The position numbers and the translations under genes were made by a program. Of a stretch of DNA of 64,000 bases, positions 11,140 through 42,076 are shown in pieces (positions within the stretch are counted from its first letter, which is position 1; every line of letters starts with the position of its first letter). The notes beneath the pieces are model-generated. The model was not told where the DNA came from, ran no database searches, and saw nothing but the letters and a program-made list of their open reading frames with translations. Origin of the DNA: Halorussus vallis (lineage in GTDB: Archaea; Halobacteriota; Halobacteria; Halobacteriales; Haladaptataceae); contig NZ_CP100000.1 of the NCBI RefSeq assembly GCF_024138165.1, positions 2,418,001-2,482,000 on the forward strand, given 5' to 3'.

Positions 11140-12495
11140 TCAGCGATACGCGTCCAACTCCCTACCGAAGACGAGGAAGTAGCCGGTGCCGACCAGTCCC
11201 ACGACGGTCGCCAGTCCGAACGCCAACTCCGGCCCGCCCGGCGAGAGGCCGTAAATCCACCCGCCGACCGCCGCGCTCGGGATGACGACCGCGTTGCGCG
11301 CGAGGTAATAGGACCCGACGACCCGACCGCCGGCGTTCTCCTCGGCCGGACCGACGATGAGCGCCTTGTGGGCCGGCAGGCCGGCGAACCGGAGTCCCGA
11401 GAGCGCGAACAGCGCGGTGACGAGCGCGGTTTCGGAGACGGCGACGCCCGCGACCGTGAGGCCGCCCTCGGGTGCGTTGACCAGCAGCGCGGGGAAGACG
11501 GCGTAGACGACGAACCCGAGTGCGACGACGGGCTTCAGCCCGACTCGCCGGGCCAACTTGGAGACGGGGATCATCACGGCCAGCGCGACCGCCATCTCGA
11601 CCGCCAGCAGGACGCCGAAGAAGGCGTCGGGTCCGAGGTAGCCCACGACCGGGAGCGTCGCGCTGACTGCGAGGTACTGGGTCACCACGAGGACGACGAA
11701 GACGTAGACCATCCCGTTGGCGAACCGGACGAGGGTGTCGCCGACCAGCAGGGGCCGGAGCGTCTCGGGCATCCCCCGGAGGTCGTCGACGACCTGCGAG
11801 ACGCCCTCGAACTCCTTGCCGAAACTGTCCTCGCTGGCGTCGTAGAGGACGTGCTGGGCGACGGTCGCCAGCAGGCTGAACCCGGCGGCGACCGCCAGCA
11901 CGTACCGGAACCCGACCTCGAACTCGTACATCGTGAGCAGGCCCGCCGTGATGAGGGGCCCGAGCAGGAAGGCGGTCCGGCGGAACGTCTCGGTGCTGGC
12001 GAACCCGGTCGCCAGTTCCTCGGGCGGGACGCTCTGTTTCACGATGGCGAACGTCGCGCCGAGGCCGAACGACTTCCACGCTTGCGCGAGCAGCAGGCCG
12101 ACGAAAATCCACGTCCACGCGGGAACCGGCTCCACGTCGAACGACGGCGCAAGGAACCACAGCACGAAGCCGAGCGTCGACGCGAGTCCGAAGGCGGTGA
12201 GCGCGGTCCGCGAGCCGATGCGGTCCGAGAGTGCGCCGCCCGGGTAGGGGTAGACCGCACTGATGAGATTGCCGAGGCTCCCGTAGAGGCCGATGACCAC
12301 GCTGGTCGCGCCGAGCACGCCGAGGTAGCGCGCCATGTACCGCCCGGTCATCTGGAAGCCGAGGCTGAACGCGAACATCGCCAGCGAAAGGACGAGGACG
12401 TCTCGCTCCAGCGCGAGGAACTGTCGGAACGCCGCGAAGGGGTCGGCGCTGTCGCGTTCGGTCGCCATAATCGGAGGTTGGGAGGTGACGGGCAA
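11140..12495 (-). CDS. MFS transporter
   Basis: 451 residues, 12 helices. Motif A variant GGALSDRIGSRTAL follows helix 2. The N-terminal RYMARYLGVLGATSVVIGLYG and the later FASTETFRRTAFLLG have clear counterparts in the diverged protein at 55916-57277, so the two are paralogues. Substrate unknown. The 770-base repeat region lies upstream. Confidence 0.88.
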   Translation of the reverse strand: MPVTSQPPIMATERDSADPFAAFRQFLALERDVLVLSLAMFAFSLGFQMTGRYMARYLGVLGATSVVIGLYGSLGNLISAVYPYPGGALSDRIGSRTALTAFGLASTLGFVLWFLAPSFDVEPVPAWTWIFVGLLLAQAWKSFGLGATFAIVKQSVPPEELATGFASTETFRRTAFLLGPLITAGLLTMYEFEVGFRYVLAVAAGFSLLATVAQHVLYDASEDSFGKEFEGVSQVVDDLRGMPETLRPLLVGDTLVRFANGMVYVFVVLVVTQYLAVSATLPVVGYLGPDAFFGVLLAVEMAVALAVMIPVSKLARRVGLKPVVALGFVVYAVFPALLVNAPEGGLTVAGVAVSETALVTALFALSGLRFAGLPAHKALIVGPAEENAGGRVVGSYYLARNAVVIPSAAVGGWIYGLSPGGPELAFGLATVVGLVGTGYFLVFGRELDAYR

Positions 12496-12584
12496 AATTG
12501 TGGGGGTTCTCTCTATCGGTGTGTCTGGGGTGCGCTGGGTGGGACTACGGAGGTTTGAGGAGTGATGCGGAGCTAGTTATAGAG

Positions 12585-13125
12585 TTTGAGAAGACGGCGA
12601 CGACAGCAGACGAGAACGCCTCGAAAGCCTCCGTCCAATCATCACGAAACACTGCTACAACCGTAGCGGTGACCACCTCGAAAGCCCCCGCCCGCTCGCG
12701 GTCGCTCCGCGGGATATTCGGCGCTCGCCGACGGCGAGCGCCGAATAGTTGCCCGACGGAGACGACCCCGTCCTTCGGACGCGAGCGGGCGGCCCCTTTC
12801 ATCCACCCAGACCGCACCGCGGCCGCGCCAGCGCGCGCCACGCCGGATGTTTAATCTTCGAAAGACCCACAGACCAAACCCTCACGGACGCTCGGCCGAC
12901 CAACCGGCGGGTGGGACTGGAAGGGGCCGGGCGCTCGCGTTCACTTCAGTCGCCTCAGCGACCCCTATTCGGTGAGGGCCGAAGGCCCGAACCGGATATG
13001 TCGCTGAGCGACCGCGAGCGTCCGGGGGCTTTCGAGATGTTCTCAGTTGTAGTAATCGTCGTAGCTTGTGAGTAGATGAGGGCTTTCGAGGCGGTCACAG
13101 TTACGGTCGCAGTATTTACAATCTG
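12585..13125. repeat. Large imperfect inverted repeat of a mosaic intergenic element
   Basis: The gap 12496-13266 has no credible gene. Two diverged copies face each other: about 12676-12810 and, reversed, about 12909-13041. Shared blocks are CTCGAAAGCCCCCG, CGCTCGCGGTCGCTC, an inner palindrome-like core and CGGCCCCTTTC. A further CTCGAAAGCC lies outside each copy (12620 and, inverted, 13081-13090). The symmetry axis is near 12855. I recall similar intergenic elements in other haloarchaea; no transposase is present. Confidence 0.7.
12715..12747. repeat. 16-bp perfect hairpin in the left repeat copy
   Basis: Arms 12715-12730 and 12732-12747 with a one-base centre. The matching position in the right copy carries a shorter imperfect hairpin (GGGCCGAAGGCCC), so the stem is conserved in form rather than in sequence. 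Confidence 0.7.
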
Positions 13126-13266
13126 TACTTCCACTACCTCGCTCGAGAACCTCCCAAACAGTAGCGTCTCGTCCGGTTTCGCTCCCACGATTTCCGTGCG
13201 TTCAATTCCCACCACCCCTCCCGGCAACCGAACCGCTAAAGGGCGAGTAGCCGCCCGTTATGGGTA

Positions 13267-14223
13267 ATGAAGACGCTCGGAACGGCGAGTGCGGCCCCCG
13301 GGGAGATAGACACCGGGCGGCTGCAGGTGGGTGAAACGCGCGACGGCGGCGAATTCGGACTCCCCGTCGCGGTCATCAACGGCGCGGACGACGGACCCAC
13401 CCTGTACGTGCAGGCAGTCAGCGACGGCGACGAACTCAACGGCCTCGGCGTGATTCAGCGCGCGGTGCCCCAGATTCCGCCCGAGGACCTCTCGGGGACG
13501 ATTCTCGTGGTCGGCATCGTCAACTACCACGCGTTCCAGGTCGCCGAGCACCGCAACCCCATCGACGACACGAAGATGAACCGCACCTACCCCGGCAACG
13601 AGTCGGGGACCTCCAGCGAGCGCATCGCGGCCGCCACCTTCGAGGCGGCGTCGCGGGCCGACCTCATCCTCGACCTCCACCAGGGGTCGACCAGCCGGAT
13701 GATAAACGAGGTCCGAGTCCGGTGCGGCCAGCGCCACCGCCTCCACGACGAGTGTCTCGAACTGGCGAAGGTGTTCGACTGCGGCTACGTCCTCGACCAG
13801 AAGGGACCCGACGGCCAACTCGCCCGCGCCGGCCCCGACGAGGGCATCCCGACCATCGACCCCGAACTCGGCGGCTGCGTCGGCTGGGACGAGGAGAGCA
13901 TCGAGTACGGCGTCCGCGGGGTGTTCAACGTCCTGCGCTACTACGGCTTCCTCGACGGCGACGCCAACCCCGGCACCCAGACCCGCGCGACCGGCTTCGA
14001 CCGCTACGGCTCGCCCTCCGGCGGCCTGGTCGACTTTCAGAAGGAACTCGGCGAGTCGGTGTCGCCCGGCGACGTGCTGTTCCGCGTGACCGACCCGTTT
14101 GGCCGCCTCAAGGCCGAGGTGACCGCCGACGGCGAGGGCATCTTCTGGCGCTCGCGCCGTCTCCCGCAGGTGGCGACCGGCGAGTACGTCTGCTCGGTCG
14201 GCACCGGCATCGACGAGTACTGA
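13267..14223 (+). CDS. Succinylglutamate desuccinylase/aspartoacylase family hydrolase
   Basis: 318 residues. The M14-like zinc amidohydrolase fold is shown by DGDELNG (53-59), KMNRTYPG (about 103-110) and LDLHQGS (H138), with a biotinyl-like beta domain at the end. Known relatives cleave N-acyl amino acids. Oddly, the first zinc ligand, normally His of HGDE, is Asp53 here, while E56 and H138 are kept. This may be a subfamily trait. The substrate is unknown; the gene stands alone. Confidence 0.85.
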   Translation: MKTLGTASAAPGEIDTGRLQVGETRDGGEFGLPVAVINGADDGPTLYVQAVSDGDELNGLGVIQRAVPQIPPEDLSGTILVVGIVNYHAFQVAEHRNPIDDTKMNRTYPGNESGTSSERIAAATFEAASRADLILDLHQGSTSRMINEVRVRCGQRHRLHDECLELAKVFDCGYVLDQKGPDGQLARAGPDEGIPTIDPELGGCVGWDEESIEYGVRGVFNVLRYYGFLDGDANPGTQTRATGFDRYGSPSGGLVDFQKELGESVSPGDVLFRVTDPFGRLKAEVTADGEGIFWRSRRLPQVATGEYVCSVGTGIDEY

Positions 14224-40864: not shown

Positions 40865-42076
40865 TCACTCCGACCGCGGCGCTCGTTCGAGTTCCTCGTA
40901 GGGGACGAAGCCGTCTTCGGGCGTGACGACGCCCGACTGAAGCGCGCAGGCGGCCGCGCCGAGGCCCCGAGAGGAGAGCGGGCCGCGGCGGACGCACCGG
41001 AACGCGATGTTCTTCGCGGCGTTGTAGTCGTCGTTCGCCGACGCCCCGCACTTCAGGCACTCGAACTCCCCGGCTTCGAGGTTCCGGTTCTGCGGGTGGG
41101 TGAACCCGCATTCCATGCACCGCTGGCTGGTGTACTCGGGGTTGACCTCGGCGACGAGGATGCCCCGTTCGGCCGCCCGGTACTCCACGAACGAGAGCAG
41201 GCGCCCGAACAGCCACTCGTCGAACCCGCCGACTGCAGGGTCGAGTTCGCACACTTCGCTCAGTTCGCCGAAGGCGATTATCTCACAGCCGTACTGCTCG
41301 GCTTCGGCGACGATGCCGTTTGCGACCTCGTGGAGGCGCTGGCGGACGAATCGGTCGGTCCGGTCGCCGGCCTGCCGGAGGGTTCGCCTGGCGCTCCGGG
41401 TACCCGTCGCCTCCAGCGAGGCCCGAACCGACTCGAACTCCTCGCGCCGGTAGTTGAGTTCGGTCGCCGGGAAGAACCGCGCGGTGCTGGTGACCGCGAG
41501 GTTCCCGATGCCGAGGTCGACGCCCAGCACCGTCGCGCCCTCGGTGGGCGGTTCGACGTTCGGCCTGGGCGTCCGGAACCCGAGGTGGATGTCGAACTCG
41601 CCGTCGCGGTAGTGGAGCGTGCTCTTGGCTGGTTCCCAGCGCTCGTCGTCGAGGTACTGCGACTGGTAGCCGCCGTCGGCCGGCAGGTCGAGGTCGCAAC
41701 GGACTCGGTCGCCGGTGGTCGTGAGGCTGATCGAGCGGTCGTCGAAGACGGTCATCGTCCGGGTGTCGAAGGTGACGGCCGGACTAGTGAACTCCGGTTT
41801 GGACCCACCGCGGGCCCGAGCGCGCTTGATGGCTTCCGCGGCGCGGTGGGTCGCCAGTACGACGTGCTGGCTCCCGAGCGCGGTGCGCTCGCGGAGTTCG
41901 TCGTACGCGAGTTGCTGGACTTCGCTCCGGGTGTGGCAGACGCCCCAGGCCTCGTTGACCGCGAGTTGGCACCCGCGTCGCCACTCATCGACCAACTCGC
42001 CCAACCGCGTTGCCTCGTCCGGCGCGACCGAGAGTCCGGTAACCGCCGTCCGTCTGAAATATTCGGTGTCGGCCAC
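40865..42076 (-). CDS. tnpB: TnpB-type RNA-guided nuclease (IS1341-like, solo)
   Basis: 403 residues from a GTG at 42076. The RuvC triad fits D187 (GVDLGIGN), E271 (FGELSEV) and D350 (NDDYNAAKN); the zinc ribbon is C320, C323, C340, C343. All catalytic residues are present. No TnpA transposase is nearby, as in IS1341-type elements. TnpB proteins use a guide RNA from the 3' end of their own gene to cut next to a short motif. The guide would cover the last part of the gene and the 67 bases before the cupin start. Element ends are not clear. Confidence 0.88.
   Translation of the reverse strand: MADTEYFRRTAVTGLSVAPDEATRLGELVDEWRRGCQLAVNEAWGVCHTRSEVQQLAYDELRERTALGSQHVVLATHRAAEAIKRARARGGSKPEFTSPAVTFDTRTMTVFDDRSISLTTTGDRVRCDLDLPADGGYQSQYLDDERWEPAKSTLHYRDGEFDIHLGFRTPRPNVEPPTEGATVLGVDLGIGNLAVTSTARFFPATELNYRREEFESVRASLEATGTRSARRTLRQAGDRTDRFVRQRLHEVANGIVAEAEQYGCEIIAFGELSEVCELDPAVGGFDEWLFGRLLSFVEYRAAERGILVAEVNPEYTSQRCMECGFTHPQNRNLEAGEFECLKCGASANDDYNAAKNIAFRCVRRGPLSSRGLGAAACALQSGVVTPEDGFVPYEELERAPRSE

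Follow-up and report, generated by a model that had tools for sequence, protein, structure and literature searches.

A dispersed, probably mobile intergenic element of haloarchaea with shared ends and two unrelated hairpin interiors

Genes and repeats at the locus

The window analysed here is a 64,000-nt stretch of the Halorussus vallis contig NZ_CP100000.1, in which a major facilitator superfamily (MFS) transporter gene and a gene of the succinylglutamate desuccinylase/aspartoacylase family read outward from a pair of facing repeats (Table 1). The left copy lies upstream of the MFS gene and the right copy upstream of the desuccinylase-type gene, each in the same orientation as its neighbour. 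A repeat search of the window returned inverted arms at 12671-12748 and 12965-13042 (78 nt, 77% complementary) and outer arms at 12601-12641 and 13069-13109 (41 nt, 71% complementary), and both pairs are centred at about 12855-12857. This confirms the suggestion of an earlier note, made from the letters of the window, that two diverged copies face each other here and that the inner and outer arms share an axis. The outer CTCGAAAGCC pair is accounted for by partial 3'-end repeats inside the tails of both copies. As the note had said, the left copy has a perfect inner hairpin (12715-12730 with 12732-12747, 16 nt, 100%), and that of the right copy has a similar form with a different sequence, to which we add a GA/GA mismatch. 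Folded singly, the left and right copies reach z scores of -6.4 and -5.9, respectively. A CTAG is found on the left side of the pair only. The half-kilobase inverted repeat proposed at 12585-13125 is real and beyond chance, the same sequence being dispersed across the host genome.

Table 1. Features of the paired element and its flanks, in positions of the window.
Feature	Position	Strand	Evidence
MFS transporter gene, flanking	11143..12468	-	Pfam MFS_1, E 1e-17
CTAG at outer end of left copy 3' tail	12573..12576	.	window sequence
Left copy 3' tail, partial 3'-end repeat (CTCGAAAGCC at ~12620)	12577..12668	-	
Left element copy, family 1, perfect apical hairpin, GGATGAAAGGGGCC leader variant	12669..12810	-	model R1, 142.4 bits
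Spacer, 98 nt, between facing 5' ends (head-to-head)	12811..12908	.	
Right element copy, family 1, apical stem with GA/GA	12909..13044	+	model R1, 146.1 bits
Right copy 3' tail, partial 3'-end repeat (GAGGGCTTTCGAG at 13078-13090)	13045..13125	+	
Pre-start stretch (ACCGAACCGCTAAAGGGCG...), much alike in element-less relatives, outside insert	13227..13266	+	by eye
Succinylglutamate desuccinylase/aspartoacylase family gene, flanking	13267..14223	+	Pfam AstE_AspA_cat, E 7e-36

The desuccinylase-type gene was matched in 18/18 genomes of the genus, and in 6 of the 17 Halorussus relatives the MFS gene adjoins it with no element in between. The intergenic length is 798 nt in the host; in the element-less relatives it is 109, 111, 173 and 187 nt in four and 484 and 485 nt in two, and by eye the stretch before the start of the desuccinylase-type gene is much alike with and without the insert. 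At this locus the model finds the element once in the 17 relatives, as a single minus-strand copy beside another gene (L221), with a score and offset identical to those of Halorussus halobius L143. The occurrence of the flanking pair without the element in six relatives suggests that the window element was most likely gained in the lineage of the host.

Structure of the element

Thirty host copies, taken from 30 loci of a blastn search, were aligned and folded with RNAalifold; of the 42 pairs in the resulting fold, 18 have changed on both sides. Pairing was kept in 97.8% of cells, compared with 89.2% in shuffled alignments, and two-sided changed cells numbered 99 against 24.7; kinship alone can beat such shuffles without structure, and controls in which partners were slid by 1-3 columns fail too, with pairing of 35-41%. 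Five copies folded singly had z scores from -5.7 to -7.6, and for none of them was any of 200 shuffles as stable. The check by folding that the earlier note had called for thus returned a single hairpin with strong covariation. A conserved GAAAG/CTTTC helix gives way to an unpaired GGG facing another GGG and then to a long GC-rich stem; a side hairpin is optional, and the apical hairpin varies.

The common ends of the unit are GGGTGGGACTGAAAG-GGG on the 5' side and GGG-CTTTC plus a tail on the 3' side. An alignment of ends was made from 59 of the 62 strong host copies described below, after three without an exact end had been dropped. The 5' block, including its unpaired GGG, is exact in 55/59 copies, and the GA/GA pattern of the apical stem is present in 26/59. 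In one of the 30 aligned copies, L009 (host 644085-644226), CCC, which is complementary to the 3' arm, stands in place of the 5' GGG; this change suggests that part of the covariation may stem from hairpin-templated repair. The mosaic proves more extensive than had been proposed: the ends are common to two different interiors, the tails contain repeats, and the leaders are of several types.

Several variable modules were seen around this unit. A leader variant (GGTTGGGGAGG...GGGTGGATGAAAGG, with variations) occurs upstream of L014, L012, L024, L092, L098 and L103 and at 12811-12850 of the window, and is itself preceded by a GC-rich repeated block with GCGCGCG runs that is apparently a separate repeat family. 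An extra leader module, GTGGTTCTCGTGAGCGGAGCGAACGAGAGCTCGTCGGACCGGAGGTCCGACGG with small variations, stands in the same register before TGGACTGAAAGG at L005, L022, host C1:637621 and host C1:1967123. At L063, in genome G176 of the host's genus, the 3' tail of the element forms a tandem array with a period of about 53 nt (~1611-1800).

Copies in the host genome

In the host genome, blastn found 89 matches to the element and a covariance model of 141 positions, R1, found 97, of which 62 scored at least 83 bits. These 62 strong copies are a lower bound, 150 of the 11250 candidates having been scored; among the other R1 matches, 12 weaker ones were inspected and 23 were left out, 16 of the latter being the opposite strand of copies already listed. 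Genes and start codons in the host are the predictions of a simple finder based on codon bias. Among the 62 copies, overlap with a predicted gene never exceeds 40 nt, and the best match lies over no annotated feature in any of 12 annotated plasmid records (a 13th carries no annotation), in agreement with the non-coding nature that had been proposed.

The position of the copies relative to genes is uneven. The downstream gene is co-oriented with the copy in 47/62 cases (p 6e-5) and the upstream gene in 36/62 (p 0.25); the gene arrangements are ++ (30), -+ (17), -- (9) and +- (6), and the median distance from copy to co-oriented predicted start is 143 nt. Neighbouring copies less than 1.5 kb apart are head-to-head in 6/6 cases; the partner in one case is a weak match of 55 nt. 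No clear pattern related the orientation of copies to chromosome position in the host. One copy, L099 (host C1:3344074-3344215), sits between two same-strand genes that by eye resemble ABC-transporter ATPases of a branched-chain amino acid type operon.

Distribution and a second hairpin family

The earlier note pointed to similar blocks in other haloarchaea, and copies were indeed found widely. A pattern for the ends only, TGAAAGGGGC-N80-110-GGGGGCTTTC, matched in 121/391 genomes of the haloarchaeal class and in 44 of the 86 genera sampled, and the reversed pattern, used as a control, matched nowhere. Outside the class, the ends pattern occurred in 2/93 genomes from a 110-genome draw of the phylum, in both cases around unrelated AT-rich interiors. 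The R1 tally of 176/292 genomes was set aside as a measure of distribution in favour of the pattern tally, R1 matches of about 30-59 bits taking in a second family and perhaps other GC-rich hairpins.

Copy numbers per species were obtained with a slightly shorter, strict pattern in 48 named genomes, 24 of which were positive. Within Halorussus the counts over seven named species ranged from 0 to 63 (H. amylolyticus 63, H. ruber 16, H. litoreus 16, H. halobius 9, H. salinisoli 8, H. aquaticus 3, H. marinus 0), and over four named species of Haloarcula from 2 to 47 (H. rara 47, H. amylolytica 8, H. mannanilytica 5, H. salina 2), so that copy number is variable within a genus. Haloparvum sedimenti carries 49 strict copies. 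The strict pattern was absent from three Haloferax and two Haloquadratum metagenome-assembled genomes (MAGs), and from viral contigs, so we rejected an origin in viruses.

Many matches to the ends pattern enclose another interior, which we call family 2. An alignment of 30 such sequences (27 from 13 genomes and three from other loci) gave 31 pairs, 20 with two-sided changes, and one stem pair uses all four Watson-Crick types (10, 7, 7 and 6 times). Pairing was found in 95.4% of cells compared with 76.9% in shuffles and 32-49% in slid controls, two-sided changed cells numbered 153 against 38.9, and the letters of the internal loops are conserved. Four family-2 copies folded singly had z scores of -2.2 to -4.8, with 0, 3, 0 and 1 of 200 shuffles as stable. 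Two unrelated hairpins thus occupy one set of ends. Plasmid records matched both families, 4 for family 1 and 9 for family 2.

RNA or single-stranded DNA

Mismatched pairs are informative as to strand. In family 1, G-U occurs in 31 cells and A-C in 5 (16 and 5 pairs), and in family 2 the corresponding numbers are 34 and 14 cells (9 and 8 pairs). An excess of G-U over A-C indicates folding of one given strand, a signal that is clear in family 1 and weak in family 2; either RNA or single-stranded DNA would fit. An AT-rich box precedes 1/62 copies, compared with 11/47 predicted starts of downstream genes, which makes a promoter belonging to the element itself unlikely.

These observations bear on the idea that the element is a structured non-coding or cis-acting RNA, in which case the copies would be transcribed, the RNA would bind a protein or regulate its neighbours, and dispersal would be secondary. 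The strong covariation of both families, the conserved loop letters of family 2, the recurrent GA/GA of family 1, the G-U excess and the co-orientation with downstream genes are what such an RNA would be expected to leave, but we regard it as unlikely given the rarity of the AT-rich box, the position of 17/62 copies in divergent regions, where no predicted gene is read in the direction of the copy, and copy numbers that differ among congeneric species from none to dozens. Furthermore, among the Rfam matches listed, none reached the gathering score.

The dimer unit and its CTAG boundary

The organization of the unit is best seen in copies whose genus we infer, from coordinates identical to those in named genomes, to be Haloarcula. 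Of these, 32/43 have a partner end within 60 nt, as halves of head-to-head dimers, 5 have a hairpin-less remnant and 6 have neither. CTAG is found 25-92 nt after the 3' CTTTC in 29/40 copies and in 0/40 for a control interval of 150-217 nt (in H. rara alone, 11/14 and 0/14), and in most of them it sits about 50 nt beyond the CTTTC, outside the hairpin. It is the most enriched tetranucleotide in a count that pooled the Haloarcula copies with five from another genus (G165), and in the same pooled copies a weak [GC]AA was seen by eye to follow it. The five G165 copies themselves have neither CTAG (0/5) nor a partner, and the signal is weaker in the host (10/59 compared with 2/59 in the control). 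In the sections available, PMC6471742 and PMC5867850 describe CTAG as under-represented in haloarchaea, where a conserved orphan C(m4)TAG methylase has it as its motif.

One H. rara site, compared across relatives other than G348 and G344, illustrates how much the state of the unit varies. There, a 361-nt unit has CTAG at both outer ends, and five relatives have 46-50 nt between the anchors; other relatives have the full unit (G312, G394), tails only (G380), one hairpin (G310), the unit without its hairpin (G228) or about 2 kb of other sequence (G306). Two H. rara sites have CTAG at each outer side, and the empty alleles shown carry none, so that the target duplication asked about in the earlier note is no more than possible. 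At the site just described, CGAG is found on the right in one relative and CTCG on the left in another.

Hairpin-less docking sites were found at three loci. At L105 (near 2458, plus strand) the ends are joined as GAAAGGGGGCTTTC, at L003 (near 1826, plus strand) they are joined with one extra C, and the third, L328, is on the minus strand. Either a precise loss of the hairpin from between the two G runs or a hairpin that was never inserted would give this appearance. A looser pattern for such collapsed dimers gave mostly ordinary 3' ends among the best 40 of 75 matches, and only these three were kept.

At one orthologous Haloarcula site, by eye, pairing is kept even though 6/13 stem pairs differ. 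A dead insertion would not be expected to keep its pairing in this way unless selection, gene conversion or hairpin-templated repair acted on it. Across three species at this site, interiors are 60-78% identical and tails 59-69%, with a median of 72% between paralogs; the swapping of interiors between orthologous sites was considered and set aside as indistinguishable from fast change, since the tails diverge as much.

The kept pairing also suits a second alternative, that of a DNA palindrome maintained by template switching during replication, selected as an insulator or terminator at the boundaries of transcription units and spread by conversion. The CCC of L009 is what hairpin-templated repair would give, and copies do lie in both divergent and tandem positions, but such a palindrome would hardly explain a 5' block with an unpaired GGG that is exact in 55/59 copies, element-less sites beside the same genes, or CTAG at the outer ends in Haloarcula, and we consider it improbable.

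Search for the mover

The host encodes one Y1 transposase, one sub-threshold fragment and nine TnpB genes; one of the nine is a TnpB-like gene in the window at ~41006-41209 on the minus strand (Pfam PF07282; genome 2459006-2459209). A REP- or PATE-like single-strand element moved in trans by an IS200/IS605 Y1 transposase would have subterminal hairpins, strand specificity, a tetranucleotide at its end and no clear target duplication, as the element has, and the host does hold a Y1 gene. Against this, a motif scan of the 11 host Y1/TnpB loci brought up no more than a single 13-mer (L248), which has two mismatches to an element end. Among the 14 named genomes in which the strict pattern occurs five times or more, 6 lack any Y1 match, and H. 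amylolyticus, which has the highest count, is one of them. Conversely, two Haloquadratum genomes with 11 and 12 Y1 matches have no strict copy, and over 38 named genomes copy number and Y1 number are not correlated (rank correlation -0.11, p 0.50). We therefore rejected Y1/IS605 as the sole present-day mover, and regard the single-strand element served by Y1 as highly improbable, although an enzyme of the past or a distant one may have acted.

Retroposition of an RNA was likewise rejected, the reverse transcriptase domain RVT_1 being found in 0/24 genomes and in 3/14 control genomes. An autonomous element between distant head-to-head copies was also considered, and the one interval of this kind that was read, 3.4 kb long (3340699-3344074), holds seemingly ordinary host genes. 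Neither a Y1 (IS200/IS605) transposase nor a reverse transcriptase is therefore likely to be the mover.

Comparison with known repeats

No description of the element was found among the matches listed in the literature searched (titles and the starts of abstracts, and the main texts of open-access papers), and the four end motifs, searched as text, matched only unrelated work on microRNA. The REP and REPIN sequences associated with RAYT are bacterial palindromes of 20-40 bp that depend on a Y1 enzyme. Like them, the element is intergenic, folded, often in head-to-head pairs and high in copy number, but it measures about 125-140 nt per half, and several copy-rich genomes have no Y1 enzyme. Miniature inverted-repeat elements (MITEs) are similar in being short and non-coding and in needing a protein in trans; the element appears to differ in that no long terminal inverted repeat common with a transposon was seen, only CTAG and the weak [GC]AA.

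The nearest described kinds are the PATEs and SMRs of Haloquadratum, and tests of membership admitted the element to neither. PATEs are described in the available part of PMC3119063 as palindrome-associated transposable elements, their palindromes being related to IS605-type transposons, with those palindromes near the ends, a short terminal oligonucleotide and no target duplication reported in that part. The element resembles them in these last features and differs in showing no IS605 kinship in the 11 host loci (end motif, at most 2 mismatches) and in that Y1 genes do not track its copies.

SMR-A and SMR-B of Haloquadratum walsbyi, according to the available part of the same source (PMC3119063), are about 80-110 bp long, have inverted ends unrelated to any known transposon, carry no gene, reach up to tens of copies and are mobilised in a mode called enigmatic; those of one type are commonly more than 95% identical, and SMR-A targets PATEs and IS605 elements. 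Compared with SMRs by this description, the element is likewise gene-less and multi-copy, and its GAAAG/CTTTC ends would fit the inverted ends. Its copies are far more diverged, with a median identity of 72.4% and a maximum of 88.2% among 14 H. rara copies, and they lie between genes, in Haloarcula mostly as CTAG-ended head-to-head dimers. Unlike SMR-A, all 62/62 host copies lie outside predicted genes, and the end motif appears in the 11 IS605-type loci only as the L248 13-mer with its two mismatches. The strict pattern was absent from the two MAGs of H. walsbyi, the species that hosts SMRs.

Interpretation and significance

We favour the reading that this is a non-autonomous mobile element of haloarchaea, with shared ends and a strand-specific fold, inserted at CTAG by an enzyme acting in trans, and put its probability at roughly 0.6. 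It is suggested by dispersed and variable copies, empty sites, CTAG ends, head-to-head pairs, two interiors under one set of ends, hairpin-less sites and intergenic position. The trans-acting enzyme would recognise the ends and the folded single strand, the unit would be inserted at CTAG upstream of promoters, and the hairpin would be an interchangeable and easily lost cassette on a constant docking site. Several findings count against this mobile element, namely the pairing kept at the orthologous site, the weaker strand signal and single-sequence folding of family 2, the lack of strict matches in viral contigs, and a CTAG that is weak in the host, absent in G165 and from the empty alleles shown, and one-sided in the window. 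In addition, no insertion event was seen between close strains, and no moving enzyme was found.

More speculatively, and in our estimate doubtful, though possible, the copies may belong to a cassette system of the whole class. Here a constant CTAG-bounded docking platform would carry at least two unrelated hairpins that are exchanged, gained and lost, their folds being kept at inherited sites by compensatory change, and a dedicated enzyme would read the folded strand (RNA or DNA), possibly together with CTAG methylation.

If the mobile reading is true, a repeat that is frequent across many genera of an archaeal class, at up to about 60 copies per genome, and that is new to the literature searched, would probably be moved by something outside the two usual suspects, the Y1 transposase and reverse transcriptase. 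Its two unrelated hairpins, which share one platform, would form a natural collection of compensatory changes, and the element would give a definite setting in which to study the function of the rare, methylated CTAG motif in haloarchaea.
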